Source of the DNA: Comamonadaceae bacterium
Lineage (GTDB): Bacteria > Pseudomonadota > Gammaproteobacteria > Burkholderiales > Rhodocyclaceae
Assembly: GCA_029255645.1 (NCBI GenBank)
Contig: JANLJE010000041.1
Location: 1-42,913 of the forward strand
DNA: 42,913 bases
Reading direction: 5' to 3'
Shown: positions 3,915 through 36,424 of the stretch, in pieces
How positions within the stretch are numbered: position 1 is the stretch's first letter
How the letters are laid out: the number at the start of each line of letters is the position of its first letter
The notes under the pieces: generated by a model
The model's input: the letters and a program-made list of their open reading frames with translations, nothing else
Databases searched by the model: none
What the model was told of the DNA's origin: nothing
Program-made: the position numbers and the translations under genes

Positions 3915-3938
3915 TCAAGTCAGGGCTCAAGTCAGGGC
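3915..3938. repeat. 12-bp tandem repeat spanning the HDOD1 stop codon (2 copies)
   Basis: On the gene's strand the unit is GCCCTGACTTGA, present twice in tandem (3927-3938 and 3915-3926). The first copy encodes the last residues Ala-Leu-Thr and the stop of HDOD1; the second repeats the same codons and stop in frame immediately downstream. It is one of several stop-anchored tandem repeats in the window. Confidence 0.9.
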
Positions 3939-4769
3939 CGCCTGGATTTCCCGGATGTCGTCCCAGGCCTCGTCCAGCAGGTCGGCATAACGGGCCCGGT
4001 CGGCGGCGGCCCGTTCGCTGTCGGCCAGCCCGCTATCGCAACCTAGCCACTCATGGTTACCTCCGGCCAGGAGGTTGGCGAAATAGAGCACGTCGGCCAG
4101 GCTGCTGGGGGTATCTACATGCTTGAGTTGATCATGTTCGCGGATGGCCTCGATGATGGGTTCGGGCATGCCCAGGGTGTAGAGCAGGCTCTCGCCGATG
4201 CTTTCGTGCCAGCCGATCACCAGGCTGAGCAGGTCTGCGCGGTTGTTCTTGTACTCCGGGTATTCCGCCGCGCGATAAAGCAGGTAAAACACGCCGATGT
4301 CGTGCACCATGCCGGCCAGCATGGCGTCTTCAGGATTGACCCGGCCGAGGCGGCGGGCCAGCACCCGGGCGATGGCGGCGACTTGCAGGGAGTGTTCCCA
4401 GGTGAGACGGCCAATATCCTCGAAGGCTGTCAGGTTCCCGGATTGCAGCATCTGCTCGATGGCGACGCTCAGGGCCGTGGTGCGCACGGTTTCAAAGCCG
4501 ACCCGGTGGATGGCGGTGCGGATGTCGGTGATGCTTTTTCCGGCCGGGTTGTAGGTGACCGAGTTGGCCAGGCGCAGTAGCCGGGCGGCGATCAGCGGTT
4601 CGATGCTGATGACCTGGGCCACCTTCTCGACGGAGACCCGGGGGTCGCGCAATACATTGCGCACGGTCATGCTGGCATCCAGGTAGGTCGGGAAATTGAT
4701 CTCGCCGGAGAGATCCTTGGCGATGTCTTCGAGGACGCGGAAATGGAGGGAATCAACCGTGTTGGTCAT
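3927..4769 (-). CDS. HDOD domain signalling protein (HDOD1)
   Basis: 280 aa made almost entirely of one HDOD domain, a relative of HD phosphohydrolases found in bacterial signalling proteins. Typical segments are ISIEPLIAARLLRLANSVTYN near the N-terminus, AIHRVGFETVRTTALSVAIEQM in the middle and the HD-like stretches GMVHDIGVFYLL and WHESIGESLL. Most HDOD proteins are not proven enzymes and act in regulation of motility, biofilm or stress. It has no attached receiver or output domain, so its partner cannot be inferred. The ATG at 4769 is supported by the family N-terminus. The last codons and stop are tandemly duplicated (see repeat). A second HDOD gene lies at 9039-9902. Confidence 0.9.
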   Translation of the reverse strand: MTNTVDSLHFRVLEDIAKDLSGEINFPTYLDASMTVRNVLRDPRVSVEKVAQVISIEPLIAARLLRLANSVTYNPAGKSITDIRTAIHRVGFETVRTTALSVAIEQMLQSGNLTAFEDIGRLTWEHSLQVAAIARVLARRLGRVNPEDAMLAGMVHDIGVFYLLYRAAEYPEYKNNRADLLSLVIGWHESIGESLLYTLGMPEPIIEAIREHDQLKHVDTPSSLADVLYFANLLAGGNHEWLGCDSGLADSERAAADRARYADLLDEAWDDIREIQAALT

Positions 4770-4911
4770 GGGAATATGATTACGTTGGCGGCAAGGGGTG
4801 AACTTAACGCTTTTTTGGGTGCGTGTGACCTATCCGTTGAATTTGTTCGCGGCGGCGCCGACCTGCTTCAGGGCATGCAAGCCCCTCGCCCCTGCCGGCC
4901 CACTGAATGAC

Positions 4912-4935
4912 GAAGCCCGCCGGGCGGCGGGCTTC
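4912..4935 (-). terminator. Candidate terminator hairpin after the CBS gene
   Basis: A perfect 10-bp inverted repeat GAAGCCCGCC / GGCGGGCTTC with a 4-nt loop, 33 nt beyond the CBS gene stop in the direction of transcription. The T-tract is weak, so termination may be partial. Confidence 0.6.
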
Positions 4936-4967
4936 TCCGGGACCGGACTGGCCCGCTTGCCATCGCA

Positions 4968-5399
4968 TCAGCCGGAGATGTAACGTTCCAGCTGGCTGAT
5001 GATGAATTCCTGGTGGCTGATGGTGGCCTTGACCAGATCCCCCATGGAAATCACACCCAGGACCTGCAGGTCCTCATCCAGGACAGGCAGATGGCGGAAC
5101 CGGTGCTGGGTCATCAGGGACATGCATTCTTCAATGCTATTGCGTTGGGTGACATAGGCCACCTTGTGGGTCATGACCGCCTCGATCATGGTTTCCCGGG
5201 AGTTGCGGCCGCTCAGGATGACTTTCCGGGCGTAATCCCGCTCGGAGAAGATGCCCACCAGTTTTTCTCCATCCATGACCAGCACGGCACCCACGTCGTT
5301 GTCGGCCATGACGCTCAGGGCGTGATAGACGTTGTCCCTGGGGGAAACCACGATCGGCAGACCGCCCTTGTCTTCGAGAAGCTGTGTCAATGTCTGCAT
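4968..5399 (-). CDS. Two-CBS-domain protein
   Basis: 143 aa, the usual size of stand-alone paired CBS (Bateman) proteins that bind adenine nucleotides and regulate other proteins. The first CBS domain covers about residues 10-65 (VYHALSVMADNDVGAVLVMDGEKLVGIFSERD shortened here) and the second about 72-130 (EECMSLMTQHRFRHLPVLDE then VLGVISMGDLV). No catalytic or DNA-binding domain is attached. The start at 5399 has a strong AAGAGGTAGG ribosome-binding site. The cytochrome c4 gene lies upstream on the same strand but 296 nt away, so separate transcription is likely. Function in this organism is unknown. Confidence 0.92.
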   Translation of the reverse strand: MQTLTQLLEDKGGLPIVVSPRDNVYHALSVMADNDVGAVLVMDGEKLVGIFSERDYARKVILSGRNSRETMIEAVMTHKVAYVTQRNSIEECMSLMTQHRFRHLPVLDEDLQVLGVISMGDLVKATISHQEFIISQLERYISG

Positions 5400-5596
5400 T
5401 GCCTACCTCTTGTTGTTCTGCGCCTGGAGTCCAATCGTCTGACCGCTGAATGCGCAACAGGCTGGTGGGCCAGATAGATGGGGAGTGCCATTTTCAGCGC
5501 TCCTTCCGGGTGCGCCACAAGCGCAGCCTGTGGAGGATCGAAGCCTGAAATCTTGTCGCTTGTCCCGCCGTGCCCGCCGGGCAGCCGCCGAGCCTT

Positions 5597-5650
5597 GTGC
5601 GGCTCAAACCCGTCGTGCGGCTCAAACCCGTCGTGCGACTCAAACCCGAA
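5597..5650. repeat. 18-bp tandem repeat (3 copies) downstream of cytochrome c4
   Basis: Unit GTGCGGCTCAAACCCGTC at 5597-5614 and 5615-5632, with a slightly diverged copy at 5633-5650. It lies 45 nt past the cytochrome c4 stop on that gene's downstream side. On the gene's strand each unit contains TTTGA, like the stop-anchored repeats elsewhere. The rest of the 5400-5695 spacer shows no gene; it should hold the CBS promoter, but I could not pick one with confidence. Confidence 0.95.
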
Positions 5651-5695
5651 GCGCCGGTCTCCGCTGTGCGGGCGGGCTGTCCGGCAAGGCAGGGG

Positions 5696-6331
5696 TCAGC
5701 GCAGGCCGGCAGCGTATTCAGCAACCGACTTGATGTCATTGTCAGACAGTCTGTCAGCGATGCTGCGCATCATGGATTCAGGATCGTTGGCACGTTCACC
5801 GGAGCGGAAGCTCTTGAGCTGGAGTTCGATGTATTCGGGGAACTGACCTGCCAGCGCGGGATACTGGGCCGGCAGACCTTTGCCAGCCGGACCGTGGCAC
5901 CCGGCACAGGCGGGGACGCCCTTGGCGGCATCACCGGCACGCCACAGTTTCTGGCCACGGGGAATCAGGGCTTCCTGGGTGGCCATGGCGGGCTTGAGCT
6001 GTTGCTGGGCGAACCAGGCGGCGACGTTCTTCATGTCCTCGTCGCTCAGGGCGGCGGTCATGCCGGCCATGATGGGGTTGTTACGGGCGGCAGGCTTGCC
6101 ATCCACGGACTTGAAGGCAAGCAGCTGCTTGTAGATATAGTCCTGCCCCTGGCCTGCCAGGTGGGGATAGGCGGAGACCATGCTATTGCCATCGACGCCA
6201 TGACAGGCGACACAGATGGTTTCGGCAACAACCTTGCCCTTGGCCGGATCAGCCTTGGGTTTGGCTTCTTCTGCTGCATTTACGGTGAAACCGGCTACGA
6301 GAAGTGCCGCCAGCGCCATGGTGCGAATCAT
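5696..6331 (-). CDS. Dihaem cytochrome c4
   Basis: 211 aa precursor, exported to the periplasm. The signal peptide is MIRTMALAALLVAGFTVNAA. Two haem-binding sites, CVACH (40-44) and CAGCH (142-146), head two homologous halves; each half has a later methionine suited as the sixth haem ligand (IMAGM and ESMMRSI). Cytochrome c4 passes electrons from the bc1 complex to terminal oxidases. A TTG start six bases upstream is possible, but ATG at 6331 has AAGGAG at the proper distance and a clean signal peptide. Divergence from engB is a conserved betaproteobacterial arrangement. Confidence 0.95.
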   Translation of the reverse strand: MIRTMALAALLVAGFTVNAAEEAKPKADPAKGKVVAETICVACHGVDGNSMVSAYPHLAGQGQDYIYKQLLAFKSVDGKPAARNNPIMAGMTAALSDEDMKNVAAWFAQQQLKPAMATQEALIPRGQKLWRAGDAAKGVPACAGCHGPAGKGLPAQYPALAGQFPEYIELQLKSFRSGERANDPESMMRSIADRLSDNDIKSVAEYAAGLR

Positions 6332-6380
6332 GTCCAAACTCCTTTTACGCGAGAGAGGCGGGAGAGCCTGCCAAGTATCG

Positions 6381-6409
6381 ATATTTACAAACCTGCTATT
6401 CTATATCAA
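6381..6409 (-). promoter_or_regulatory. Possible cytochrome c4 promoter
   Basis: On the minus strand TTGATA (6404-6409) and AAATAT (6381-6386) are 17 bp apart in an AT-rich divergent spacer (6332-6450), about 50 nt upstream of the cytochrome start. The -35 is good and the -10 poor. The same spacer must also serve engB. Confidence 0.33.
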
Positions 6410-6450
6410 CTCGATTGATTATGTAGCGCCCTTCAGAATCCGGAGTCTTC

Positions 6451-8258
<1,808 letters not shown>

Positions 8259-9902: not shown

Positions 9903-9908
9903 GTCCGC

Positions 9909-10886
<978 letters not shown>

Positions 10887-10892
10887 TTAAAG

Positions 10893-20655: not shown

Positions 20656-20684
20656 TCCAAAATTTTACTCGAAGCCCATTTGCC

Positions 20685-22043: not shown

Positions 22044-22045
22044 GC

Positions 22046-22077
22046 CAGGGGATTCAGGGATTCAGGGATTCAGGGTT
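22046..22077. repeat. 8-bp tandem repeat spanning the lytic transglycosylase stop (3 copies)
   Basis: On the gene's strand the unit is AWCCCTGA: AACCCTGA (22070-22077, with the real stop), ATCCCTGA (22062-22069), ATCCCTGA (22054-22061), then a degenerate 9-nt copy ending by the ffh stop. The unit is not a multiple of three, so TGA triplets occur in different frames. Confidence 0.93.
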
Positions 22078-22690: not shown

Positions 22691-24408
22691 AGCTTTTCCT
22701 GCAGGAAGGCCAGGGCGGTATCGGCGGGGATCATGGTGGCTTCCTCATCCTGGCGGCCCTTGTATTCCAGCTGGCCGTTGGCCAGGCCCCGCTCGCCCAC
22801 CACGATGCGGTGGGGCACGCCCATCAGTTCCATGTCGGCGAACATGGAGCCGGGCCGCTCGTCCCGGTCGTCCAGCAACACGTCCAGGCCGGCGGCCTCG
22901 AGTGCTTCGTAAAGCTGGTCGGCGGCGGCCTTCACGATTTCGCTCTTGTAGTAGCCCATGGGCACGATGGTGACCTGGAAGGGGGCGATGGCGGCGGGGA
23001 AGATGATGCCCCTGTCGTCATGGCCCTGTTCGATGGCGGCGCCGACGATGCGCGACACGCCGATGCCGTAGCAGCCCATTTCCATGATCTGGCTCTTGCC
23101 CTGTTCATCCAGGAAGCTGCAGTTCAGGGCCTTGGCGTAGGTGCTGCGCAGCTGGAAGATGTGGCCCACTTCGATGCCCCGGCAGATGGCGAGATTGCCC
23201 TTGCCATCCGGGGAGGGGTCGCCGGCCACCACCTTGCGCAGGTCGGCCAGCTCGGGTTCCGGGCAGTCGCGGCCGAAATTCACGCCACTCAGGTGAAAAC
23301 CCGCGGCGTTGGCGCCGCAGACGAAATCGGCCATGACGGCGACGCTCCGGTCGGCAATGACCCGCACCTTTTCTGGATCCACCCCGACCGGCCCGATATA
23401 ACCGGGCTTGCAGCCCAGGAATCGTTCCACCTCTTCTTCCGTGGCAAAGCGGAAGGGGTTGAGGCCGGCGATCTTGCCCGCCTTGATTTCATTGAGTTCG
23501 TGGTCGCCGCGCAGGAGCAGCAGGGCGAAGGTCCGGGGCCCCTCTTCGGGTTCGCTGACCACGGCGATGGCCTTGACCAGGCCGGAGAGCGGAATGTTCA
23601 GGAAGCCGGCCACGTCGGTACAGGCGGTCTGGCCCGGGGTGCTCACCTTGGCCAGTTCTGCGGTAGCGGCCGGGCGGGGCGTGGCAGGCGCCAGGGCCTC
23701 GGCCAGTTCCACGTTGGCGGCGTAGCCGGATTCCGGGCAGTAGGCGATGTCGTCCTCGCCGGTCTCGGCAATGACGTGGAACTCATGGGAGCCGGTGCCG
23801 CCGATCGAGCCGGTATCCGCCGCCACGGCCCGGAACTGCAGGCCCAGGCGGGTGAAGATGCGGCTGTAGGTGTCATACATCGACTGGTATTCCCGCTTCA
23901 GGTCCTCGAAGCTGCTGTGAAAGGAATAGCCGTCCTTCATCAGGAATTCCCGGCCGCGCATGACGCCGAAGCGGGGCCGGATCTCGTCCCGGAACTTGGT
24001 CTGGATCTGATAGAGGTGCAAGGGCAGCTGACGATAGCTCTTTACGTCGCGGCGCACCACGTCGGTGATGACTTCCTCGTGGGTGGGGCCGATGACGAAG
24101 TCGCGCTGGTGGCGATCCTTGAAACGCAGCAGCTCGGGGCCATATTTATCCCAGCGGCCCGATTCCTGCCAGAGTTCGGCAGGCTGCACGGCGGGCATCA
24201 GCAGTTCCAGGGCGCCCGCCTTGTTCATCTCTTCCCTGACAATGTTCTCTACCTTGCGCAGGACCCTGAGGCCCAGGGGCATCCAGGTGTAGATGCCCGC
24301 GGCGGCGCGCTTGATGAGGCCGGCGCGCAGCATGAGCTTCTGGCTGATGACCTCGGCGTCGGCCGGGGCTTCCTTGAGGGTGGCGAAGAAAAATCGAGAG
24401 GAACGCAT
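22678..24408 (-). CDS. proS: Prolyl-tRNA synthetase, bacterial type
   Basis: 576 aa, full length for the bacterial form with the inserted editing (INS/YbaK-like) domain, here about residues 230-390, which hydrolyses Ala-tRNA-Pro. Class II motifs: motif 1 around [20 protein letters not shown], motif 2 [21 protein letters not shown] split over the core, motif 3 [13 protein letters not shown]-terminal anticodon domain ends KLCAA. ATG at 24408 starts [19 protein letters not shown], the family N-terminus; TTG six bases earlier is an alternative. It overlaps the transglycosylase start by 13 nt and is divergent from rppH. Confidence 0.98.
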
Positions 24409-24523
24409 GAGCAACGAGTCCGATATCCGGTAAAACTTCGATTTTACACCGGGCGGTAATTTTGCATGGGCGTCACAGTTGTGAAAGAATTCGCTTCAAC
24501 CAAATATTTAGCAGGATTTAGCT

Positions 24524-25069
24524 ATGCTCGACAAAGAGGGCTTTCGCCCGAACGTCGGCATCATTCTTTGTAACGCAAAAAACGAGGTTTTCTGGGGTAA
24601 ACGGATTCGGGAGCATTCCTGGCAGTTTCCGCAAGGCGGCATCAAGCGGGGCGAAACGCCGGAACAGGCCATGTATCGGGAACTGCACGAAGAAGTCGGT
24701 TTGCTTCCCGAGCATGTGGCCATCCTGGGACGTACCAAGGGCTGGTTGCGTTATGAAGTGCCGACACATTGGGTCAAGCGTGAATGGCGGGGATCTTACC
24801 GGGGGCAGAAGCAGATCTGGTTCTTGCTGCGCCTGGTGGGACGGGACAGTGATGTCTCGCTGCGGGCCAGTTCCCATCCCGAATTCGACGCCTGGCGCTG
24901 GCACGACTACTGGATTCCCCTGGACACCGTGATCGAATTCAAGCGTGGGGTTTATTCCCAGGCCTTGAATGAGCTGGCGCGTTTTCTCGAAGCCGACAAG
25001 CGCAGGCGCCTGCGCCAGGAAAATCCATCATCCACACCGCCAGCGGCGGAGGGAAGGGAAGATGAATAG
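24524..25069 (+). CDS. rppH: RNA pyrophosphohydrolase RppH
   Basis: 181 aa. Removes pyrophosphate from the 5' end of mRNAs and so starts RNase E-dependent decay. N-terminus [17 protein letters not shown] and the Nudix box [23 protein letters not shown] (residues 38-60, shown in part by its key E's in RELHEEVG) identify it. WQFPQGG and [10 protein letters not shown] are further RppH markers. The charged tail after residue ~155 is variable. Divergent from proS, as in many betaproteobacteria; the 3' end overlaps the CNP1-like gene by 8 nt. Confidence 0.95.
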
Positions 25070-25580
25070 TTTCGTCCGTACCTTGTGTGCCCTGTTCCTG
25101 GCGGGGCTTGCCGTGCAGGCTCAGGCCGCCTTTGATGAGGAGTTTGAGGAAAAACCCTGGGAGGAGATTGCCGTTCAGCTGCCTCCCTTTCCCAAGGACG
25201 AAAACTTCCTCAGCTTTTATGTGAGCCCCACGGCCACCAACCGTTTCTTTCTCGACACCGAAAGTCTTTCTGTCGGCAGTGACGGCGTGGTGCGTTACGT
25301 CTTGCTGGCGCTCAGTGATTCGGGAGTGCGCAACATCACTTTTGAAGGCATGCGCTGCCAGACCCGGGAATGGCGGATTTATGCGGTAGGGCGGCCGGAT
25401 GGAGGCTGGTCCAAGGCTCGGAGCAACCAGTGGAAGCCTGTTCGCGAGCAGGTCACCAACCGCCAGCATGCGGCCTTGTTTACCGATCTGCTCTGTCCCG
25501 ATGGGGTGATTGCCTTCCGGGTCAGCGACATTCTGCGAGCCTTGAAGAAGGAGGGGCGGCCTTTATCCAAGGCTCCTTGA
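25062..25580 (+). CDS. CNP1-like family exported protein
   Basis: 172 aa. Signal peptide [22 protein letters not shown]. The body, with [38 protein letters not shown] and [16 protein letters not shown], resembles the CNP1-like family of betaproteobacterial exported proteins of unknown function. ATG at 25062 overlaps the rppH stop by 8 nt and has GGAGGGAAGGG upstream; the frame is open to 24969 but that part overlaps rppH. The last codons are the first unit of a tandem repeat. Confidence 0.85.
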
Positions 25581-25645
25581 TCCAGCCTCCTTGATCCAGG
25601 CTCCTTGATCCAGGCTCCTTGATCCGGCCTCCTTGATCCAGCTTG
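25566..25645. repeat. 14-bp tandem repeat spanning the CNP1-like stop (5 copies plus a fragment)
   Basis: Unit TCCAGGCTCCTTGA. The first copy, TCCAAGGCTCCTTGA (25566-25580, 15 nt), ends with the real stop; further copies are 25581-25594, 25595-25608, 25609-25622 and 25623-25636, then the fragment TCCAGCTTG. Every copy ends in TGA; the 14-nt period places later ones in other frames. Confidence 0.97.
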
Positions 25646-26014
25646 TCTGGCGTTGCCGACCCAGTTGCCAGCCCATTTTGCGCTGAATTTTGCGCTGAAT
25701 ATCGGGCGCGGGAGTCCTGTTCCCTCTCCCGCGGGCCTTCTCCCTGAGTTGAATGCGCATGAGGATTTTGCCGTGATAGGCGCTATTGCCCTGGACGGCG
25801 ATCCTGCTTGCACCGCTCACCTTGTCGGGGGCTTGGCATTTTATCTGCAGGGTGCATGCCTGCCAGCCCTCCTGGGCCAGCGGGAATCAGGACGGCCTGG
25901 GCCAGGATGCGGGTCAGGAAAACAGTAGCGCTTGGTTCACGTGGCTGCGGGTGGCTGCGTTTGGATGAAGCGGAGATCCCGAACCCGAAGCGCATGGCTT
26001 TGAAAGGAGAGGAA
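25637..26014. other. Spacer between the CNP1-like gene and coq7, no credible gene
   Basis: Short ORFs on both strands lack ribosome-binding sites and family features. A 12-bp direct duplication TTTTGCGCTGAA occurs at 25676-25687 and 25688-25699. The coq7 promoter should lie here but none is clear. The stretch may be decayed coding DNA. Confidence 0.5.
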
Positions 26015-26641
26015 ATGAACTGGAGTGACAGCTTGATCGTGGCGATCGACAAGGGCTTGCGGACCGTTTTTGCCGAGGCTCGCAGTGTCCGGCCGGTGCC
26101 CGGGGCGCAATTGCCCGAAGCCGGGCTCAATGATGCCGAGCGCCGCCATGTGGCGGCCCTGATGCGTATCAACCACGTCGGGGAGGTGTGTGCCCAGGCC
26201 CTGTACCAGGGGCAGGCCATGACCTCGCCCAACGAGCGGATCCGGGCTTCCCTGGAAGAGGCGGCCCACGAGGAAACCGAACATCTGGCCTGGACGGAGC
26301 AGCGTATCCGCGCGATGGGGGGGCGCAAGAGTCTGCTCAATCCCCTGTGGTATGCAGGTGCCCTGGCCATCGGCATGACGGCGGGACGTCTGGGAGACAG
26401 GTGGAATCTGGGTTTTCTGGCCGAAACGGAGCGCCAGGTCGAAGCGCATCTGGATCGCCATCTGGACAAGTTGCCGGCTCAGGATCAGAAGTCCTGGGCC
26501 ATCCTCGAACAGATGAAGGTGGACGAGGTGAAGCACGCCGAGACGGCCGTGCGGCTCGGGGCTGCGCCCCTGCCGGGTCCGGTGAAGCTGCTGATGAAGC
26601 TCTCGGCCCGGCTCATGACCCGGGTGGCTTATCGGGTCTGA
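26015..26641 (+). CDS. coq7: Demethoxyubiquinone hydroxylase Coq7
   Basis: 208 aa. Di-iron membrane-associated monooxygenase that hydroxylates demethoxyubiquinone, the penultimate step of ubiquinone synthesis; betaproteobacteria use Coq7 where E. coli uses UbiF. Iron ligands: E57 in [13 protein letters not shown], the EETEH motif (E87, H90) and VDEVKHAE near residue 170. ATG at 26015 follows AAAGGAGAGG; the frame stays open upstream to 25808 without family similarity. The stop lies inside the first unit of a 14-bp repeat, and the gene converges on osmC. Confidence 0.96.
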
Positions 26642-26674
26642 AGTAGCGGGTCTGAAGTAGCGGGTCTGAAGGCA
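26633..26674. repeat. 14-bp tandem repeat spanning the coq7 stop (3 copies)
   Basis: Unit CGGGTCTGAAGTAG at 26633-26646 (containing the real TGA, 26639-26641), 26647-26660 and a diverged third copy from 26661. It adjoins an unrelated repeat belonging to the convergent osmC gene. Confidence 0.94.
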
Positions 26675-26713
26675 GCAGCCGGGGGCAGCAGCTGGGGGCT
26701 GCAGTTGGGGGCT
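26675..26713. repeat. 13-bp tandem repeat abutting the osmC stop (3 copies)
   Basis: On the osmC strand the units are AGCCCCCAACTGC (26701-26713), AGCCCCCAGCTGC (26688-26700) and TGCCCCCGGCTGC (26675-26687). The first begins directly after the osmC TGA (26714-26716). These units carry no TGA of their own. Confidence 0.9.
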
Positions 26714-27142
26714 TCAGGCGACTTCGATGATGTCGAAGTCGTGGGTGATTGCGGCGGTTTTGCCCAGCATGATGGAGGCGGAGCAGTATTTGTCCTTGGA
26801 CAGGTCGATGGCGCGTGCCACGGCCTCGGGCTTGAGATTCTTGCCGCTGACCCGGAAGTGAAAGTGAATGCGGGTGAAAACCTTGGGGTCGCTGTCTGCC
26901 CGCTCGGCCTCCAGGCGGACGTCGCAGCCGCTGACCTGGTGGCGACCTTTTTTCAGGATCATCACGATATCGAAGGCCGTGCATCCGCCGGTGCCGGCCA
27001 GCAGCATTTCCATGGGGCGGGGGGCCAGGTTGCGGCCGCCGGCTTCAGGCGCGCCATCCATGGTCACCATATGGCCGCTGCCGGTTTCCGCGACGAAGGA
27101 CATGCCGCTGTCGGCGCCCATCCACTTTACGGTGCATTGCAT
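26714..27142 (-). CDS. OsmC family peroxiredoxin-like protein
   Basis: 142 aa. OsmC/Ohr fold proteins are thiol peroxidases or related redox proteins. PRPMEMLLAGTGGCTAFDIVMIL has the first conserved cysteine, and KYCSASIMLGKTA the second, the usual pair. It resembles the YhfA-like OsmC branch rather than Ohr. Two ATGs compete: 27148 is only one base from GGAG, while 27142 is 7 nt away, so 27142 is chosen. A TAAAAT at 27169-27174 is a possible -10. The 3' end abuts a 13-bp tandem repeat and converges on coq7. Confidence 0.92.
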   Translation of the reverse strand: MQCTVKWMGADSGMSFVAETGSGHMVTMDGAPEAGGRNLAPRPMEMLLAGTGGCTAFDIVMILKKGRHQVSGCDVRLEAERADSDPKVFTRIHFHFRVSGKNLKPEAVARAIDLSKDKYCSASIMLGKTAAITHDFDIIEVA

Positions 27143-27148
27143 CTTCAT

Positions 27149-27350
27149 TCTCCAGGTAAGCAGCCGCTATTTTAGCTGAATAGCTGAACCACTGTTTTGC
27201 TGCCATGCACCAAAAATTCTGGCAGATTGGCGTGCTGGACCCGGAGGCAGGATTTAAAGAGTGCTTCAGTCGTTTCTTTAATGACTACAATTCGCAATAA
27301 AATCAACAAGATATTAACGATAAGTTTATTTTATCCAGTCATTTTCAAGG
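27149..27350. other. AT-rich spacer upstream of osmC
   Basis: No credible gene. The stretch 27240-27350 is much more AT-rich than the rest of the window and could supply UP-element-like contacts to the small RNA promoter on the right. An 8-bp duplication TAGCTGAA is at 27173-27188, near the osmC start. Confidence 0.5.
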
Positions 27351-27369
27351 AATTGTGCGCCGCACAATT
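27351..27369. promoter_or_regulatory. Perfect 19-bp dyad upstream of the small RNA promoter
   Basis: AATTGTGCG-C-CGCACAATT, two 9-bp arms around one base. It ends 3 bp before the -35 of the candidate small RNA promoter, a position suited to an activator or repressor of that promoter. The regulator is not identified. Confidence 0.6.
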
Positions 27370-27372
27370 TTC

Positions 27373-27401
27373 TTGCCTCGATCCTGTTTGTGGGGGATAA
27401 T
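27373..27401 (+). promoter_or_regulatory. Promoter of the candidate small RNA
   Basis: TTGCCT (27373-27378) and GATAAT (27396-27401) with 17-bp spacing. No protein gene follows on this strand before a strong terminator 84 bp later, so the predicted product is a non-coding RNA. Confidence 0.6.
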
Positions 27402-27407
27402 TCACCC

Positions 27408-27514
27408 ATCGAAACAAGTTGTGGTGTCTCCTTCAAGTTGTTTTGACCTTTGTCTCCTCCACCCTCCTCCTTTGGTGTGGATTTAACGCGACTCCCCGGA
27501 GTCGCGTTTTTTTT
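27408..27514 (+). ncRNA. Candidate trans-acting small RNA with anti-Shine-Dalgarno motifs
   Basis: About 107 nt from the predicted start to the end of the T-tract. Between promoter and terminator there is no ORF. Three C/U-rich stretches are complementary to ribosome-binding sites: TCTCCTT (27428-27433 region), TCTCCTCC (27453-27460) and CCTCCTCCTTT (27463-27473). A stable 3' stem with a T8 tail gives the 3' end expected for an Hfq-dependent RNA. This architecture is shared by C-rich betaproteobacterial small RNAs that block translation; membership in a named family is not claimed. Expression is inferred only from sequence. Confidence 0.6.
27485..27514 (+). terminator. Strong intrinsic terminator of the small RNA
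   Basis: AACGCGACTCC / GGAGTCGCGTT with a 2-nt centre, an 11-bp perfect inverted repeat, followed by a run of eight T's (27507-27514). Confidence 0.92.
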
Positions 27515-27580
27515 CCTACGGAACGAGGGCGTGTTTCGCGCGTTCTGGTGGGTTCTGTCAGGTTCTGGCAGCAAGCCAGG

Positions 27581-27618
27581 AAAAAGCCCGGTCCGCAGGG
27601 TGCGGAGCCGGGCTTTTT
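27581..27618 (-). terminator. Terminator downstream of panD, bidirectional
   Basis: AAAAAGCCCGG pairs with CCGGGCTTTTT, and an inner CCGCA/TGCGG stem extends it. T5 tracts exist on both strands. It lies 78 nt past the panD stop, beyond the 11-bp repeat, and probably ends the pan operon. Confidence 0.85.
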
Positions 27619-27629
27619 GATGGGGCGTC

Positions 27630-27695
27630 CCAGGCAGGGATCAGGCAGGGTTCAGTCAGGGTTCAGTCAGGGTTCAGTCAGGGATCAGTCAGGGT
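27630..27695. repeat. 11-bp tandem repeat abutting the panD stop (5 copies plus one degenerate)
   Basis: On the panD strand the unit is ACCCTGACTGA (variants TCCCTGACTGA, ACCCTGCCTGA). Copies are at 27685-27695, 27674-27684, 27663-27673, 27652-27662 and 27641-27651, with a degenerate one at 27630-27640. The array begins right after the panD TGA (27696-27698), and each unit carries one or two TGA triplets. Confidence 0.97.
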
Positions 27696-28079
27696 TCAGG
27701 CGGCGGCCTGAATCTGGATCTGCTGACTGGTGTGTGAAATGCGGTTGTTGGCGTCCGCATAAACCAGCTTGGGTTCGTGTCTGGCGATTTCCTGCTCGTT
27801 CATGCCGACAAAGGTGGCGATGATCAGCAGGTCGCCAGGGGCGGCCTTGCGCGCCGCGGAACCGTTGACGGAGATGATGCCGGAACCGCGTTCGGCACGA
27901 ATCGCGTAGGTGGTAAAGCGCTCGCCGTTGTTGATGTTCCAGATGTCGATCTGCTCGTATTCCTTGATGTCGGCAGCTTCCAGCAGGTCCTCGTCAATGG
28001 CACAGGAGCCTTCATAGTGCAGTTCGGCATGGGTAGTGGTTACCCGATGCAACTTGGACTTGAGCATCATTCTTTGCAT
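27696..28079 (-). CDS. panD: Aspartate 1-decarboxylase
   Basis: 127 aa proenzyme. Makes beta-alanine for pantothenate. Self-cleavage at Gly24-Ser25 in [17 protein letters not shown] creates the pyruvoyl cofactor, and the motif is intact. ATG at 28079 ([13 protein letters not shown]) puts Ser at position 25 as in other PanD; the longer frame to 28115 would not. The C-terminal tail [12 protein letters not shown] is variable. It is the third pan gene, 98 nt after panC. A small RNA gene and a terminator lie downstream. Confidence 0.97.
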
Positions 28080-28177
28080 GGCGTCATCCGTCACAAGGTG
28101 TTGAGGGATTGGCATTGTAGCGACTAAATCCCCGCTGTCAAACAGAGAATTCCCGGTATTTTCCGGTCGAATTCGGG

Positions 28178-29822
<1,645 letters not shown>

Positions 29823-29865
29823 GGGTCTATCCGGAAGTTGGGGGCATTATCCTAACAGCGAAAGC

Positions 29866-30993
29866 TCATCCGTGCTCCATGCAGAGGATGTCGGGGTTGT
29901 TCGCGCCGGCCCGGGCCATTCGTTCCAGGCAGTCGAGCACCTCCATGCTCGCGGCTTCCATGCGGGCCACGCACTCGGTGCCGCCGGAAAAATCACCGGC
30001 ATGAAGTTTCTCGATGGCTTCGCGGCCATGCTGGTGTACGGCGATGTGGGGTTTTTCCATGGCGGCGTAGCCATCCAGGCGGGAGAAACACTGCTTGCCT
30101 TCGCCCTCGTAATACCACTTGCCGAGCCGGCACATGCAGTGGTCGGAAAAATCGCCAGGCTTCTTCCCGGAAACCCCGATGAACACCTTGTAGATCTCGA
30201 ACTTGAAGACCAGGTGGTCCATCTTGGCCAGTTCCGTGAAGCTGCGCAGGGCGGCCACGGCGATGGCGAATTCCATCTTGTGGGAGGTTTCCAGGATGCC
30301 TTCGATGCGTTCGGCGGCCTCGGCGCCGGCATTGCCGAAATCGGCGGACATCCGGGCCAGATTTTCCATGCTGGAATGGGCGTTGGCGGTATCGCGCTGG
30401 ATGTTGTTCACCAGGTTGAAGGTGTCGCTGGTGGCCTTGCTGGTGCGCTCTGCCAGCTTGCGCACCCCGTCGGCCACCACGGCAAATCCGCGTCCGGCTT
30501 CTCCGGCCCGGGCGGCCTCGATGGCGGCGTTGAGGGCCAGTAGATTGGTCTGGTCGGCGATTTCCTTGATCAGGGAAAGGATGTTGCCGATCTGCACGGT
30601 GCTGCTGTTGAGGCCATCGACGATGCTCATGGTCTGGCGGGATTCCTGGGCCAGGGTGGCCAGATCGTGGCTGATCTTCTGCATCAGGTCGCGGCTGGCG
30701 GCGGAGATGTTGGCTGCCCGCAGGGCTTCGCTCTTCTCCTCCTTGAGCTCCTCGGCCAGCAGGGCCAGGGTCTGCTGGGAGACGCCCAGGCTGCCGCCGA
30801 AATTATCCAGGTTCTTGAGCAGGTGTTCCCAGCCCTGGGTCACGTCAAGGGCGGCGTTACAGCGTTTTTCCGCATCTTCGACCTGATGCTCCAGGTCGTG
30901 CAGGTGTTGGGTCAGGGTGGCATTTTCCTGTTCCAGGGTGGCAATGCGGGCCAGGGCAGCTGGATCCTGGCGGGGGCCGAACAAACCAAACAT
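29866..30993 (-). CDS. Cytoplasmic methyl-accepting chemotaxis protein with CZB zinc domain
   Basis: 375 aa without a transmembrane segment, so soluble. An N-terminal coiled coil (10-50) leads to a compact signalling domain with hairpin tip [21 protein letters not shown] (about 144-164). The C-terminal CZB domain has zinc ligands H260, C288 in CRLGKWY, H316 and H320 (HIAVH), matching the chemoreceptor zinc-binding consensus. CZB proteins sense zinc or oxidants such as HOCl. The usual Glu after ADGVRKL's Asp is Gly176. ATG at 30993 follows GAAGGAG. It is inserted between the DMT gene and panB in an otherwise biosynthetic run. Confidence 0.93.
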
Positions 30994-31037
30994 CCATGTC
31001 TCCTTCGTTGTTGTCCAGGGGTTTTTCAGGGTGGCCC

Positions 31038-31388
31038 TCAGGCCCGGAAAATGAAGTAGACCGCGCCCAGCAGGCAGAGGGCGGCCCACAGATAATCGAG
31101 TTGCAAAGGTTGCTGCATGTAGCTTAGCGCGAAAGGGATGAATACCGACAGGGAGATCACTTCTTGCAGGATTTTCAGTTGCGCCAGACTCAGGGCCGTG
31201 TGGCCGATCCGGTTGGCGGGAACCTGCAGCAGGTATTCAAACAGGGCGATGCCCCAGGACAGCAAGGCGGCGATCCACCAGGGCCGGTCGGCCAGGTGTT
31301 TCAGGTGCCCGTACCAGGCAAAGGTCATGAACAGGTTGGAGAGCACCAGCAGCCCGGCCGCCTGCCAGAATACCGGCTGGTTCAGCAT
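31038..31388 (-). CDS. DMT superfamily small membrane protein (DUF486)
   Basis: 116 aa with four hydrophobic segments (about 7-25, 38-56, 70-88, 96-115), the size of DUF486 members of the drug/metabolite transporter superfamily. [11 protein letters not shown], the [19 protein letters not shown] loop and the C-terminal GAVYFIFRA are family-typical. Substrate unknown. Its start overlaps the end of folK by 7 nt, so it belongs to the hda-pcnB-folK transcription unit. Confidence 0.92.
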
Positions 31389-31870
31389 GGCAGGCGCCGG
31401 ATCGTCTGGTTGCGCAAGGCGGGCCGCCAGGCGGCGACGCTGCCCCGGCCGGGTAATGTCAGATCCGGGGCGATTTCGGCCAGGGGTTCCAGGACGAAGG
31501 CGCGCAGGTGCAGGCGGGGGTGGGGCAGGGTGAGGGCCGGGGTGTCCAGGACCAGATCGCCGTAGAGCAGGAGATCCAGATCCAGGGTGCGCGGGGCGTT
31601 GGCGATGCTGCGCACCCGGCCCTGTCGCTGTTCTGCATCCAGCAGGGCCTGCAGCAGCGCTACCGCCGGCAGGGTGGTTTCCACTGCGGCCACGGCGTTG
31701 ATGAAGTCGGGCTGGTCCAGCAGCCCGAGCGGAGCGCTCTGGTAGAGGGAAGAACTCTTGAGCAGCCGGGTTTCCGGCAAGTGGTCCAGGCCGGTCATGG
31801 CCTGGCGCACCGTCTCCCTGGGGGAGCCCAGGTTGGCGCCCAGGGCGATGTAGGCAACAACGGGGTTCAT
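31382..31870 (-). CDS. folK: HPPK, 6-hydroxymethyl-7,8-dihydropterin pyrophosphokinase
   Basis: 162 aa. Activates hydroxymethyldihydropterin for dihydropteroate synthesis. YIALGANLGSP is the N-terminal motif, and APRTLDLDLLLYGD holds the two metal-binding aspartates. A Trp common before PRTxDLD in other bacteria is replaced by Ala (NAPRT). ATG at 31870 overlaps the pcnB stop by four bases (ATGA). The pathway partner nudB is at 11630-12073. Overlaps the DMT gene downstream. Confidence 0.96.
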   Translation of the reverse strand: MNPVVAYIALGANLGSPRETVRQAMTGLDHLPETRLLKSSSLYQSAPLGLLDQPDFINAVAAVETTLPAVALLQALLDAEQRQGRVRSIANAPRTLDLDLLLYGDLVLDTPALTLPHPRLHLRAFVLEPLAEIAPDLTLPGRGSVAAWRPALRNQTIRRLPC

Positions 31871-33240
31871 CCTTGTTCTGCTGGAGCGGTGGGGGCGCTG
31901 GCTGCCCTGGGCTTGCGCCGCCGGCGTTTCTTTCTGGCGCCCTGGTCGGGCAGCAGCATCTGGCTCCGGGCTTCGCCGTCCGCATCCTGAAAGCGGGTCC
32001 ACCAGTCGGCCAGTTCCGCATCCAGTTCGCCGGCCTGGGCGCGCAGGCAGAGGAAGTCATAGGCGGCCCGGAAGCGCGGGTGTTCCAGTACCGCATAGGG
32101 GCGCCGGCCGGCCCGTTGCTCGAAACGGGGCTGGAGGGCCCAGATTTCCTTGATGTCGCCTGCAATGCGGCGGGTGATGGCCAGTTTTTCGCCCTGGATA
32201 TTCAAGACTTCTTCCATGGCCTGATACAGGGCGGGAATGGAGGATTCGCCGCCCGCCTTGATTCGTTCCCAAACGCTCAGCACTTCATGCCAGAGCAGGG
32301 TGGCAAACAGGAAGCTGGGAGAGGAACTCTTGCCCTGACGGATGCGCTCATCGGTATTGGCCAGGGAGAGCAGCACGAATTTTTCGCCCAGAGGCTGTTC
32401 CAGAATCACGTCCAGCAGGGGCAGTACGCCGTGGTGCAGGCCTTCGGCGCGCAATTGCTGCAGGCACTTCACGGCATGGCCGGAGGTGAGCAGCTTCAGC
32501 ATTTCGTCAAACAGGCGGGAGGCGGGCACGTTTTCCAGCAGTTCGGCCATTTCCCGGATCGGGTGCCGGGCTTCCGGGTCGATGGAGAGTCCCAGTTTGG
32601 CGGCCAGGCGCACGGCCCGCAGCATCCGCACCGGGTCTTCCCGGTAGCGCAGCCTGGGATTGCCGATCATGCGCAGGGTTTTCTGCTTCAGGTCGGCCAC
32701 GCCGTGGTGGTAATCGACGATCTGCTCGGTGGCGGGGTCGAAATACAGGGCATTGACGGTGAAGTCCCGGCGTGCGGCGTCTTCCGCCTGGGTGCCGAAC
32801 ACGTTGTCCTGCAGCACCCGGCCGTGGGCATCGGTCTTGGCATCATCGACCAGGCCACCCCGGAAGGTGGTGATTTCGATGATTTCCTGGCCCATGTAGG
32901 CATGGACGATCTGGAAGCGGCGACCGATCACCCGGGAGCGGCGGAAGCAGCGCCTGGCCTGCTCCGGTGTGGCATTGGTGGCCACGTCGAAATCCTTGGG
33001 GGTGGCGCCGATCAGCAGGTCGCGCACGGCGCCGCCGACCACGTAGGCCTTGTAACCGTGGCTTTGCAGGGTCTCGCAGACCCGGCGACTGCCGCTGCTG
33101 ATCTGGTCCCGGCTGATGCCGTGGGTGGAACGGGGGATTACCGCAGCCTTGCTGTCTTTGGCGGAGGCGGAACCCGTTTTCTGGAGGGGGGCGCCGTTGC
33201 TTTTGCCCCCGAATACGCGGCTGATGAATTTGCGAATCAT
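31867..33240 (-). CDS. pcnB: Poly(A) polymerase I
   Basis: 457 aa. Adds poly(A) tails that promote RNA decay. The class II nucleotidyltransferase signature is AYVVGGAVRDLLIGATPKDFD (about 66-86, with the two metal-binding Asp in DFDVATN). ARRDFTVNALYFD and RYREDPVRMLRAVR are the tRNA-nucleotidyltransferase/PcnB motifs. The very basic tail GARKKRRRRKPR is characteristic of PcnB rather than CCA-adding enzyme. Linked to folK downstream and 27 nt from the HAD gene upstream. Confidence 0.96.
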   Translation of the reverse strand: MIRKFISRVFGGKSNGAPLQKTGSASAKDSKAAVIPRSTHGISRDQISSGSRRVCETLQSHGYKAYVVGGAVRDLLIGATPKDFDVATNATPEQARRCFRRSRVIGRRFQIVHAYMGQEIIEITTFRGGLVDDAKTDAHGRVLQDNVFGTQAEDAARRDFTVNALYFDPATEQIVDYHHGVADLKQKTLRMIGNPRLRYREDPVRMLRAVRLAAKLGLSIDPEARHPIREMAELLENVPASRLFDEMLKLLTSGHAVKCLQQLRAEGLHHGVLPLLDVILEQPLGEKFVLLSLANTDERIRQGKSSSPSFLFATLLWHEVLSVWERIKAGGESSIPALYQAMEEVLNIQGEKLAITRRIAGDIKEIWALQPRFEQRAGRRPYAVLEHPRFRAAYDFLCLRAQAGELDAELADWWTRFQDADGEARSQMLLPDQGARKKRRRRKPRAASAPTAPAEQG

Positions 33241-33267
33241 CCGATGGTCATTCTGGAAAGGGCGTCA

Positions 33268-33951
33268 TCATACTGCATTCGCACGCAGGCTGATGATTTG
33301 CCACGCTTTTGCCTGGGCGGTCTGACGCAGTTTGTCGTCCGGGTCCACCGCGATCGGGTGGCTGACCCGCTCCAGCAGGGGCAGGTCGTTATGGGAGTCG
33401 CTGTAGAACCAGGTCTTGTCGAAGCTGCCCCACCACAGGCCCAGGGATTCCAGCCAGGCCTCGACCCGGCTGACCTTGCCTTCCTTGAAGGCCGGGGTGC
33501 CGCGGGGCTGGCCGGTAAAGGCACCCTGGGCATCCTGCTTGCAGGCGGGGATGGTGGCGATCAGGTTGCCGATGCCGAATTCCCGGGCGATGGGGCCGGT
33601 GACAAAGCTGTTGGTGGCGGTGACCAGGGCGCACAGGTGGCCGGCCTCGAGATGCTGTTGCACCTTTTGCCGGGCTGCGTCCCCCATGATCGGGCGTACA
33701 TGCCGGGCCATGAATTCCTGATGCCAGGCATCCAGCCTGGCACGGGGATAGCGGGTCAGGGGCGCCAGCTGGAAGGCCAGGAATTCATGGATGTCCAGGG
33801 TGCCGGCCTTGTATTGCTCGTAGAACTGGAGGTTCCTGGCTTCCTGGACCTCACGATCCAGCACCCCTTTGCTGATCAGGAACTGGGCCCACTCGAAATC
33901 CGAGTCTCCCGAAAGCAGGGTGTTGTCCAGGTCGAAAAGTGCAAGTTCCAT
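33268..33951 (-). CDS. HAD-IB family phosphatase (SerB-like)
   Basis: 227 aa. Motif I LFDLDNTLLSGDSD at residues 5-18, motif II ALVTATNSF, motif III lysine in PAFKEGKVSRVEAWL and motif IV YSDSHNDLPLLERV give a complete HAD-IB active site. Such proteins are annotated as phosphoserine phosphatase-like; the real substrate in this operon context (between hda and pcnB, as in other betaproteobacteria) is not known. It starts one base after the hda stop. Confidence 0.92.
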   Translation of the reverse strand: MELALFDLDNTLLSGDSDFEWAQFLISKGVLDREVQEARNLQFYEQYKAGTLDIHEFLAFQLAPLTRYPRARLDAWHQEFMARHVRPIMGDAARQKVQQHLEAGHLCALVTATNSFVTGPIAREFGIGNLIATIPACKQDAQGAFTGQPRGTPAFKEGKVSRVEAWLESLGLWWGSFDKTWFYSDSHNDLPLLERVSHPIAVDPDDKLRQTAQAKAWQIISLRANAV

Positions 33952-33952
33952 G

Positions 33953-34618
33953 TCAGTGTTCCAGGGGTGAGGCCAGCACCTCCCTGAGCAGGGGCAGGGT
34001 GATGGGGCGTTTGTGTTCGAGGGAGTAGCGGTCCAGGGCTTCTACCAGGGCAGAGAGGCTGCGCATGTCCCGGGGGGCGTGGCGCAGCAGGTGGTCCATG
34101 GCTTCCGGGGGGAATTTCATGGCCCGCTCACGGGCCTGATTGCTCAGGGCGGCGATCTTTTCCGGATCGGAAAGGGGCTGCAGGCGGTAAATCAGGCCGT
34201 AGCCCAGACGGGTACGCAGGTCTTCTCGCAAAGTCAGATGCGCGGCGGCCTGGCTGGCCGCGGTGAGCAGCCGGCCACCGCTGGCGCGGATGCGGTTGAA
34301 GGCGTTGAACAGGGCGATCTGGCCGGCTTCCGAAAGGGCTTCGACATGATCCACGGCCAGGGTTTCCGGAGTTTCGAGCAGCTCGGGCAGGTCGGCCAGG
34401 TCCGGGGTCTGGCGGGCATCCCGGTAAACGAAACCGCTGGCGAGCAGCAGGTGGCTCTTGCCGGAACCGGGTTCGCCCCAGAGCAGAAAGCTCGATTCCG
34501 GGTTGGCTCCCGCCCGCCAGAGGCTCAAGGCGGCCAGGGTCTCGCCGTTGCCACCCGGGACGAAATTGTCCAGGGAAGGCGGCGCGGCAGGTATCAGGTC
34601 GAGCAGGAGTTGGCGCAT
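33953..34618 (-). CDS. hda: DnaA regulatory inactivator Hda
   Basis: 221 aa. AAA+ protein that, bound to the DNA-loaded sliding clamp, triggers hydrolysis of DnaA-ATP and prevents re-initiation. N-terminal QLLLDL (residues 3-8) is the clamp-binding motif. LLWGEPGSGKSHLL is Walker A; the Walker B region is LAVDHVEAL, a shortened form typical of Hda; the C-terminal part LRHAPRDMRSLSALVEALDRYS is the lid. First gene of a minus-strand run through folK. Divergent from purM with 99 nt between the starts. Confidence 0.94.
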   Translation of the reverse strand: MRQLLLDLIPAAPPSLDNFVPGGNGETLAALSLWRAGANPESSFLLWGEPGSGKSHLLLASGFVYRDARQTPDLADLPELLETPETLAVDHVEALSEAGQIALFNAFNRIRASGGRLLTAASQAAAHLTLREDLRTRLGYGLIYRLQPLSDPEKIAALSNQARERAMKFPPEAMDHLLRHAPRDMRSLSALVEALDRYSLEHKRPITLPLLREVLASPLEH

Positions 34619-34717
34619 GGGGCAAGAGCCTGTTTAGGGTAGAATCCGGTTTTTTTCGGGCGCCAGATTTTATCACCCCGTCCAGGCTTTATCGGGAAAC
34701 TCCCAAGGATCAAGTAA

Positions 34718-35770
34718 ATGAGTGCACAGACCTCCCTCTCCTACCGTGACGCCGGTGTCGATATCGACGCCGGTGATGCGCTGGTGGATCGCATCAAGCC
34801 CCTGGCCAGGAAAACCCTGCGCGACGGCGTGCTGGGCGGCATCGGTGGCTTCGGCGCCCTGTTTGAAGTGCCCAGGCATTATCAGGAGCCGGTACTGGTG
34901 TCCGGTACCGATGGAGTCGGCACCAAGCTGAAGCTGGCCTTCCTGCTCGATCGCCACGACACCGTGGGCCAGGATCTGGTGGCCATGAGCGTCAATGACA
35001 TTCTGGTGCAAGGCGCCGAATCCCTGTTCTTCCTTGACTACTTTGCCTGCGGCAAGCTGGATGTGGAGATCGCCGCCAGCGTCGTGGGCGGCATCGCCAA
35101 GGGCTGCGAACTGGCCGGCTGCGCCCTGATTGGCGGCGAAACCGCCGAAATGCCCGGCATGTATCCGGACGGTGAATACGATCTGGCCGGTTTTGCCGTG
35201 GGCGTGGTGGAAAAGTCCAGGCTCATCGACGGCACCACCATCCTGCCCGGCGACGTGGTCCTGGGCCTGGCCTCTTCCGGCGCCCACTCCAACGGTTATT
35301 CCCTGCTGCGCAAGATCATCGACCGTTCCCGCCCCGACCTGAAGGCACCCTTCGACGTGGTGGACGGAAATGCGCGCAGCCTCGAAGAGGTGGTGATGGC
35401 TCCGACCCGCATCTACGTCAAATCTGTCCTGGCCCTGATGAAAAAGGTGACGGTCAAGGGGATGGCCCACATCACCGGCGGCGGCCTGCTGGAAAACGTG
35501 CCCCGCGTGCTGCCCGGCAACGTGGTGGCCGTGCTGGAAAAGGCCGCCTGGCCCCGTCCCCGGCTGTTTGACTGGATGCAGGCCGAAGGCAATGTGGCCG
35601 AGGACGAGATGCACCGGGTCTTCAACTGCGGCATCGGCATGGTGATCGTGGTGGCCGCCGACCAGGCTGAAGCCGCCCTGGCCCAGCTCCAGAGCACCGG
35701 CGAGCAGGCCTGGCGGATCGGCAAGATCGAAGCCCGCCAGGGCGGCGAAGCCCAGACGCGCGTGGTGTGA
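34718..35770 (+). CDS. purM: Phosphoribosylformylglycinamidine cyclo-ligase (AIR synthetase)
   Basis: 350 aa. Fifth step of purine synthesis. Family motifs: [20 protein letters not shown] at the start, [39 protein letters not shown] and [15 protein letters not shown]. The ATG at 34718 follows AAGGAT. A candidate leader includes a T7 run at 34651-34657, but without a complete hairpin. The last two Val codons and the TGA are part of a 15-bp repeat that runs to the rlpA start. Confidence 0.98.
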
Positions 35771-35836
35771 GGCCGGGTGGTGTGAGGCCGGGTGGTGTGA
35801 AGCCGGGTGGTGTGAGGCCGCATGGTGTTGAAGCCT
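35762..35836. repeat. 15-bp in-frame tandem repeat spanning the purM stop (4 copies plus one degenerate)
   Basis: Unit GTGGTGTGAGGCCGG at 35762-35776 (encoding Val-Val-stop of purM), 35777-35791, 35792-35806, 35807-35821, and a decayed copy 35822-35836 that has lost its TGA. It fills the space to the rlpA start at 35839. In the next frame it reads as a spurious N-terminal extension of RlpA. Confidence 0.97.
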
Positions 35837-35838
35837 TG

Positions 35839-36375
35839 ATGCGCTCGATTCGACGGATTGCAGGCGGGCTGATGCTGCTCGCCCTGGGGGTCCTCCCCCT
35901 GGCGGCCGAAGAGGGATTGCACGGCCCGGGGGCGGAACTGCGTCCAGACCCCGGGCTGGAATGGCTAGCCGTGGAGCGGGAGCCAGTGCTCAAGGTGGAG
36001 CCTGAAGTCCTGGGCCCCATCCTGCGGGGCAAGGCCAGTTATTACGGCAAGACCCCAAGATTCCAGGGGCGCCGCACGGCCAGCGGGGAGCGCTTCGACC
36101 GCCGGGCCTTCACGGCGGCCAGCAACCGTTTTCCCCTGGGGAGCTGGATCGCGGTGCGTCGCCCGGGGACCGATCACTGCGTGGTGGCATGGGTCAATGA
36201 CCGCATGCATGATCGCCAGCAGCTGCGTATTGTCGACCTTTCCCTGGCGGCGGCCGAGTCGATTCAGCTGGCGTCGGCCGGGGTGGTGCAGGTCGAGGCT
36301 CGGGCTTTGCGCGGTGCTCCCGGGGTGGAGCCGGCCATCTGTCTTCAAGCCTTTGAGGCCGAAGCCAGCCTTTGA
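35839..36375 (+). CDS. RlpA-like double-psi beta-barrel protein, atypical
   Basis: 178 aa. Signal peptide MRSIRRIAGGLMLLALGVLPLAA, without the lipobox cysteine of canonical RlpA lipoproteins. The double-psi barrel spans about residues 68-160: GKASYYGKTPRFQGRRTASGERFD, then TAASNRFPLGSWIAVR and VAWVNDRMHDRQQLRIVDLS. The catalytic-type Glu (SGERFD) and Asp (VNDR) are present, but the usual TAAH histidine is Ser and no SPOR domain follows. Peptidoglycan cleavage is therefore uncertain. The upstream open frame is repeat-derived, so ATG at 35839 is chosen. The last codons begin a 19-bp repeat. Confidence 0.88.
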   Translation: MRSIRRIAGGLMLLALGVLPLAAEEGLHGPGAELRPDPGLEWLAVEREPVLKVEPEVLGPILRGKASYYGKTPRFQGRRTASGERFDRRAFTAASNRFPLGSWIAVRRPGTDHCVVAWVNDRMHDRQQLRIVDLSLAAAESIQLASAGVVQVEARALRGAPGVEPAICLQAFEAEASL

Positions 36376-36424
36376 GGTCGAAGCCAGCCTTTGAGGCCGA
36401 AGCCAGCCTTTGAGGTCGAAGCCG
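36357..36424. repeat. 19-bp tandem repeat spanning the rlpA stop (3 copies plus a fragment)
   Basis: Unit GGCCGAAGCCAGCCTTTGA at 36357-36375 (with the real stop), 36376-36394 and 36395-36413, then a partial GGTCGAAGCCGG. Every full copy ends in TGA; the 19-nt period shifts the frame each time. Confidence 0.97.

Follow-up and report, generated by a model that had tools for sequence, protein, structure and literature searches.

The window analysed here is a stretch of 42,913 nucleotides from the draft genome of a Comamonadaceae bacterium placed in the Rhodocyclaceae by GTDB (GenBank assembly GCA_029255645.1, contig JANLJE010000041.1), in which nine protein-coding genes carry a short tandem array at their 3' end. 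Judged by comparison with a sister genome of the same genus (G008), these arrays stem from recent, private duplication of gene ends and belong to a genome-wide burst of minisatellites. They are best explained, and in our view probably so, by random short tandem duplication that is raised in this lineage and survives mainly at gene ends, where it is harmless. This filter falls short of fully explaining the excess of stop-spanning arrays over noncoding DNA of the same gaps.

Stop-codon arrays of the window and their single-copy counterparts

Tandem arrays were called with Tandem Repeats Finder (TRF) and each of the nine named arrays was also checked by direct inspection of the sequence. All nine, first reported from the letters of the window without database searches (the sequence-only reading), were recovered in both ways (Table 1). 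They are 27-83 bp long, and the Pfam domains of the proteins (HDOD, AA_kinase, SLT, CNP1, COQ7, OsmC, Asp_decarbox, AIRS and DPBB_1) match the gene names. The stop codon lies inside the array at eight of the nine genes. Only osmC departs from the claim that every array includes or touches its stop, as its best-scoring TRF row ends 1 nt before the stop codon and a second, lower-scoring row includes it. The listed units differ in both length and sequence, as had been stated. The arrays do not always extend outwards from the gene end, as was also claimed, since 18 nt of coding sequence ahead of the stop lie inside the CNP1-like array and 25 nt inside the rlpA array, where the stop sits in the second copy and is displaced relative to the sister. 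For purM, TRF gives 15 bp x4.5 at 35762-35828 and also a period of 30 at 35759-35835.

Table 1. Noncoding and stop-codon tandem arrays of the 42,913-nt window
Array	Position	Strand	Unit and copies	Relation to genes
HDOD	3911..3938	(-)	12 bp x2.3	covers stop 3927-3929 of gene 3927-4769(-)
argB	9908..9967	(-)	15 bp x4.0	covers stop 9954-9956 of argB 9954-10841(-)
SLT lytic transglycosylase	22049..22075	(-)	8 bp x3.4	covers stop of gene 22070-22690(-)
CNP1-like	25560..25642	(+)	14 bp x5.9	covers stop 25578-25580 of gene 25062-25580(+)
coq7	26633..26671	(+)	14 bp x2.8	covers stop 26639-26641 of coq7 25994-26641(+), convergent with osmC
osmC	26671..26712	(-)	13 bp x3.2	1 nt from stop 26714-26716 of osmC 26714-27121(-)
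panD	27631..27699	(-)	11 bp x6.3	covers stop 27696-27698 of panD 27696-28067(-)
purM	35759..35835	(+)	15 bp, 4.5-5 copies	covers stop 35768-35770 of purM 34718-35770(+)
rlpA	36348..36423	(+)	19 bp x4.0	covers stop 36373-36375 of rlpA 35872-36375(+)
noncoding	3686..3725		20 bp x2.0	201 nt from a stop; not stop-spanning
noncoding	5597..5648		18 bp x2.9	47 nt past stop of 5696-6331(-); not stop-spanning
noncoding	25675..25700		12 bp x2.2	not stop-spanning
noncoding	39088..39136		11 bp x4.2	between tRNA-Met and tRNA-Asn
noncoding	39389..39428		15 bp x2.7	after tRNA-Thr
noncoding	41924..41960		12 bp x3.1	54 nt upstream of a gene start

In the G008 stretches at all nine window genes the unit is present once, and the stop lies at the same codon in seven of them. 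The argB unit comprises the final three codons, TGA and 3 nt, and the window holds four such copies; the end of argB in G008 reads ...AAAAGCCACTGACCGGACT, with one copy and the same stop. A single copy and an unchanged stop were likewise found for the SLT lytic transglycosylase, the CNP1-like gene, coq7, osmC and panD. The HDOD gene has one copy in G008 and ends one codon later there, and in rlpA the stop lies at another place and the C-terminus has diverged. The end of purM occurs once in L044 and L045, the closest relatives, and no array was found at the purM stop among the 23 relatives compared, 15 of them genus members. Between coq7 and osmC, two separate back-to-back arrays fill a gap of 72 nt (26642-26713) that measures 6 nt in G008.

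The same holds across the genome sample described below, where 22 genes with a stop array could be matched in G008 and the unit was repeated in none of the 22 sister ends compared. The stop was found at the same codon in 17 of these 22 genes, versus 184 of 244 genes without arrays. As the sister carries a single copy and the stop is mostly at the same codon, the stop is in most cases older than the copies. These comparisons show the compared stop arrays to be private tandem expansions of DNA that is single-copy in the sister, and the local duplication process proposed from the sequence alone is borne out by these single-copy sites, whose gene ends are duplicated here. As to relatives in general, the best named matches to the poly(A) polymerase of the window carry Azovibrio, Azonexus, Dechloromonas and Rhodocyclaceae labels; the metagenome-assembled genomes Azovibrio restrictus SZUA-447 and UBA2592 match it at 83% and 86%, respectively.

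Stop codons and array density across genomes

The source genome (G000) is a draft of 2.93 Mb in 72 contigs, from which 54 stretches with 987 kb and 942 called genes were sampled, the window included. Six all-N contigs (L007, L010, L012, L023, L026 and L027; 1.0-1.5 kb each) and the duplicate contig C41 were dropped. Genes were called with a simple hexamer model and gene starts are approximate. Counts of noncoding arrays in the window, the full sample, G008 and the 80 betaproteobacterial loci refer to a TRF score of at least 50 unless another cut-off is given.

Arrays at stops exceed chance, in the window and beyond it. The sample holds 141 noncoding arrays, of which 39 span a stop codon and 102 do not; 4 span a start codon. 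Without the window 31 of 126 noncoding arrays (896 genes) span a stop. When arrays of the same lengths were inserted by simulation into noncoding or stop-spanning sites and subjected to the same detection, 341 of 3814 detected arrays (8.9%) spanned a stop. An earlier, smaller sample outside the window had given 14 stop-spanning arrays versus 7.8 expected (P=0.033). Per 1000 positions there are 4.76 stop-spanning arrays versus 1.39 at interior positions of these gaps, a ratio of 3.4, which becomes 2.95 without the window and 2.56 when four arrays extending deeper than one unit into the coding sequence are removed as well. The claim that arrays are phased to stops beyond chance thus withstood a comparison on about 34% of the genome. 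Under the strictest null, in which each array is placed within its own gap, 35-38 were observed versus 21-26 expected, a 1.3-1.8-fold excess (convergent gaps only: 18 versus 12.6); the expected values of all nulls depend on the assumed allowed zones. The excess is sharp in the source genome, as segments beginning 0-19 nt past a stop are not raised and reach about one third of the spanning rate or less.

The sequence-only reading had put arrays at about one in five genes. This proportion fits the window, with stop-spanning arrays at 8 of 46 genes, and not the remainder of the sample, with 31 of 896 (P=3e-4). Since this feature was the reason for picking the window, the comparison is post hoc. 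Stop arrays are clustered outside the window as well (P=0.004, label shuffling). A second hotspot (L204, G000:C14:60001-80000) holds five stop-spanning arrays and zero other noncoding arrays in 20 kb, a pattern that differs from the remaining array-rich stretches. The window itself has 15 noncoding arrays, namely the eight stop-spanning ones, the osmC array and six away from stops with scores of 52-97, which are missing from the list of the sequence-only reading. Arrays also adjoin RNA genes (tRNA-Met/tRNA-Asn and tRNA-Thr; 39088-39428), and a hexamer array, GCACCC x10.3, opens the window at 1-62.

The density of arrays sets the source genome apart from its relatives. Outside the window 126 noncoding arrays were found in 944 kb, compared with 4 in 911 kb of G008 and 24 in 1.375 Mb of a panel of relatives made up of the best 80 of 117 betaproteobacterial loci. 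With a minimum of 4 copies and a unit of 10 bp or more, 43 arrays were counted in 987 kb here, coding ones included, versus 1 in 911 kb of G008. Coding arrays are about twice as dense as in G008 (102 in 944 kb outside the window versus 51 in 911 kb), and the rise thus extends beyond noncoding DNA. Eleven other genus members, represented by samples of 10-40 kb, gave 0-2 arrays each and 9 noncoding arrays in about 250 kb. G003 and G013, for instance, both had 2 arrays in a 20-kb sample and G007 had 2 in 11 kb, so that some other genus members may share part of the rise.

Accounts of the stop preference

According to the explanation that we favour, arrays would arise by replication slippage or a comparable process of short tandem duplication that runs at a much higher rate in this lineage, and would survive mainly where they are harmless because neither the protein nor the start signals are affected. 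Duplication of a segment across a stop would leave the protein unchanged, as the first copy still terminates the gene, while an intragenic duplication would cause a frameshift whenever its length is not divisible by three, and one at a gene start would disturb initiation. Gene ends would then be the place where gene-derived sequence can duplicate at any length. Such a survival filter would concentrate arrays at 3' ends and in convergent gaps.

Several features of the arrays are in line with such a filter. The base periods of coding arrays are divisible by three in 91 of 102 cases; noncoding arrays show no such bias, and the 39 stop arrays distribute over the three remainders as 12/12/15. Units of stop arrays run from the final bases of the coding sequence through the stop codon into the DNA just past it and measure 8-24 bp in 38 of 39 cases and 35 bp in one. 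Start-spanning arrays are rare (4 observed versus 11.5 expected at the interior rate), and per kb of collapsed gap there are 3.50 arrays in convergent, 1.33 in codirectional and 0.81 in divergent gaps. Copies within an array are equally similar in stop-spanning and interior arrays (identity 0.910 versus 0.915, P=0.78), which fits a single process. With 6 nt between coq7 and osmC, as in the sister, a free duplication in this gap would have had to touch a stop, and two separate arrays stand at this place in the window.

Other results weigh against this explanation. How large the burst is varies with the threshold: a TRF score of at least 40 gives 89 noncoding arrays in 544 kb versus 25 in 911 kb of G008, about 6-fold. 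Gene losses considered as causes of the burst were rejected: recJ, xseA, mutS1 and sbcD are all four present in the source genome, and the exonuclease I domain, found in 3 of 24 genomes, is missing from all 15 genus members searched, G008 included, so that its absence cannot separate the two genomes. A pure filter is moreover insufficient for the excess itself, as 27.7% of the noncoding arrays span a stop and simulated neutral insertion accounts for 8.9%. Convergent gaps, which hold no gene starts, show a 2.9-fold stop excess (2.5-fold without the window). Nor is constraint on the interior of the gaps readily the cause, because DNA past the stop is poorly conserved: ungapped identity to G008, in which indels count as change, is 0.82 before and 0.28-0.47 after the stop in 28 convergent pairs, and 0.36-0.60 after stops over all 154 pairs. 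The residual preference could reflect a process triggered at stops or some further survival advantage.

The first of these options makes stops mutational hot spots, where ribosome release and uncoupled transcription would lead to more slippage in replication or repair at gene ends. We regard this as possible, though clearly less probable than a neutral filter. It would account for the residual excess, which is 2.6-3.4-fold here and 2.2-2.3-fold in the pooled other genomes (8 spanning arrays versus 3.5 expected at a score of at least 50, 14 versus 6.4 at a score of at least 40, low counts in both cases; three loci that repeat contigs already sampled, L080, L091 and L096, were dropped), and for the density of arrays being highest in convergent gaps. 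However, uncoupling would extend beyond the stop, where no rise is seen here over the first 0-19 nt. In the 80 betaproteobacterial loci the excess is not sharp, with 0.47 arrays per 1000 positions in the 0-9 nt bin versus 0.65 spanning (score of at least 50) and 1.71 versus 1.67 (score of at least 30), and the first null is not beaten there (5 versus 3.1, P=0.26). The own-gap null, finally, reduces the excess here to the low values given above. The suggestion in the sequence-only reading that duplication is triggered at stops keeps the residual preference as its possible ground; neutral survival alone suffices for most of the pattern. The broader form of the idea, that stops are general bacterial hot spots for short tandem duplication, at 2-3 times the level of other noncoding DNA of the same gaps, with the ending of translation itself mutagenic, seems somewhat less likely still. 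If it were true, the raised duplication rate of this lineage would make a general stop bias visible.

Retention of the copies for a function, be it as back-up stops, terminators, Rho sites or insulators between convergent genes, is improbable. Array genes have their next in-frame stop at a shorter distance (median 10 versus 34 codons), yet this follows from the copying of the stop itself. Stops with arrays show slightly more structure in 75-nt regions (mean z -0.90, n=39, versus -0.33, n=120), in a comparison with simple letter shuffles, which break repeats. Selected tandem in-frame stops were rejected, as the periods of the stop arrays show no bias to in-frame copies. TGA, whose presence in eight of nine units had been pointed out, is ordinary, being used at 33 of 39 array stops and 687 of 916 stops of the sample (P=0.19), and the claim of back-up stops fails on both counts. 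The units are not richer in C than ordinary 3' sequence (0.267 versus 0.326). Matches resembling intrinsic terminators, which combine a GC stem-loop with a following T run, number 22 in window 20001-40000 versus 17.4 in shuffles; none overlaps or comes within 30 nt of the seven named arrays of this part (HDOD and argB are outside the scan), and the nearest is 35 nt past the rlpA array. The same genes also do without arrays in the sister.

Slightly less probable still is that the stop is a product of the array, in that a frame-shifting repeat close to the gene end passes through all frames and captures a new stop within itself. The rlpA gene, whose stop sits in the second copy and whose C-terminus has diverged, points in this direction, as do the four arrays outside the window that extend more than one unit into the coding sequence. 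On the other hand, the position of the sister's stop is kept as often in stop-array genes as in genes without arrays, and the excess is still 2.6-3.1-fold when the four deep arrays are left out. As a main cause, stop capture is largely refuted; it holds for rlpA and may hold for a small number of other genes.

Inflation of copy numbers by the assembler is the least probable account, for although the genome is a draft, the sister is also a draft and the window occurs in two contigs, the nine arrays are short and private in sequence, most arrays are imperfect (mean identity of adjacent copies 0.91), periods within genes are mostly multiples of three, and the arrays are identical in four stretches of contig C41 that hold eight of the nine named ones, which may nevertheless be the same data. 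The two contigs that contain the window are C39 (46,762 b) and C41 (43,077 b), the latter beginning at window base 1. They are identical in the stretches compared (window 1-3000 and four array regions) and probably an assembly duplicate.

Relation to known repeats and significance

The arrays consist of head-to-tail copies of a unit within about 7-60 bp that is private and single-copy in a close relative, and they are filed with the bacterial minisatellites, that is, with tandem repeats of the variable number (VNTR) type; as VNTRs in the strict sense, with copy numbers that vary between strains, they are candidates. Mycobacterial interspersed repetitive units (MIRU) are intergenic tandem units that overlap stop codons and form one dispersed family of 46-101 bp. 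Here, unlike in MIRU, each array repeats a private unit derived from the end of the gene that it adjoins; a MIRU-like dispersed family with one shared unit was rejected as the units listed differ in length and sequence.

As in the bacterial minisatellites covered in PMC6749651, the arrays have short units, are scattered and mostly unrelated, and many of the coding ones have periods that are multiples of three. They differ in density: in the part of that paper which gives such values only 18 bacterial species exceed 4 per Mb, whereas the present genome has 43.6 arrays per Mb (at least 4 copies, unit of at least 10 bp), counted by other detection rules than those of the paper. The term stop codon is absent from the main text of PMC6749651. 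The tandem repeats of archaeal Borgs, as described in passages of PMC9879509, are similarly recent, independent and genome-specific, intergenic or coding, with coding units divisible by three; those repeats are perfect, A-rich and located on linear extrachromosomal elements, while the arrays here are imperfect, have a G+C of 0.61 and lie in a bacterial genome. The passages of PMC9879509 contain no stop-codon statistics and those of PMC2884548 do not mention stop codons. Among the literature matches listed (titles and beginnings of abstracts, with most subscription papers outside the search) there were no stop-spanning repeats, and absence from print is not claimed.

The source genome and G008 form a close pair that differs about 30-fold (score of at least 50) or about 6-fold (score of at least 40) in noncoding minisatellite density, and thereby a natural test of what controls the bacterial rate of small tandem duplication. 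The preference for stop codons is a measurable bias in need of explanation. It also hints at the way in which 3' ends and convergent gaps lengthen, as between coq7 and osmC, where the sister has 6 nt and the window 72 nt filled by two separate arrays.

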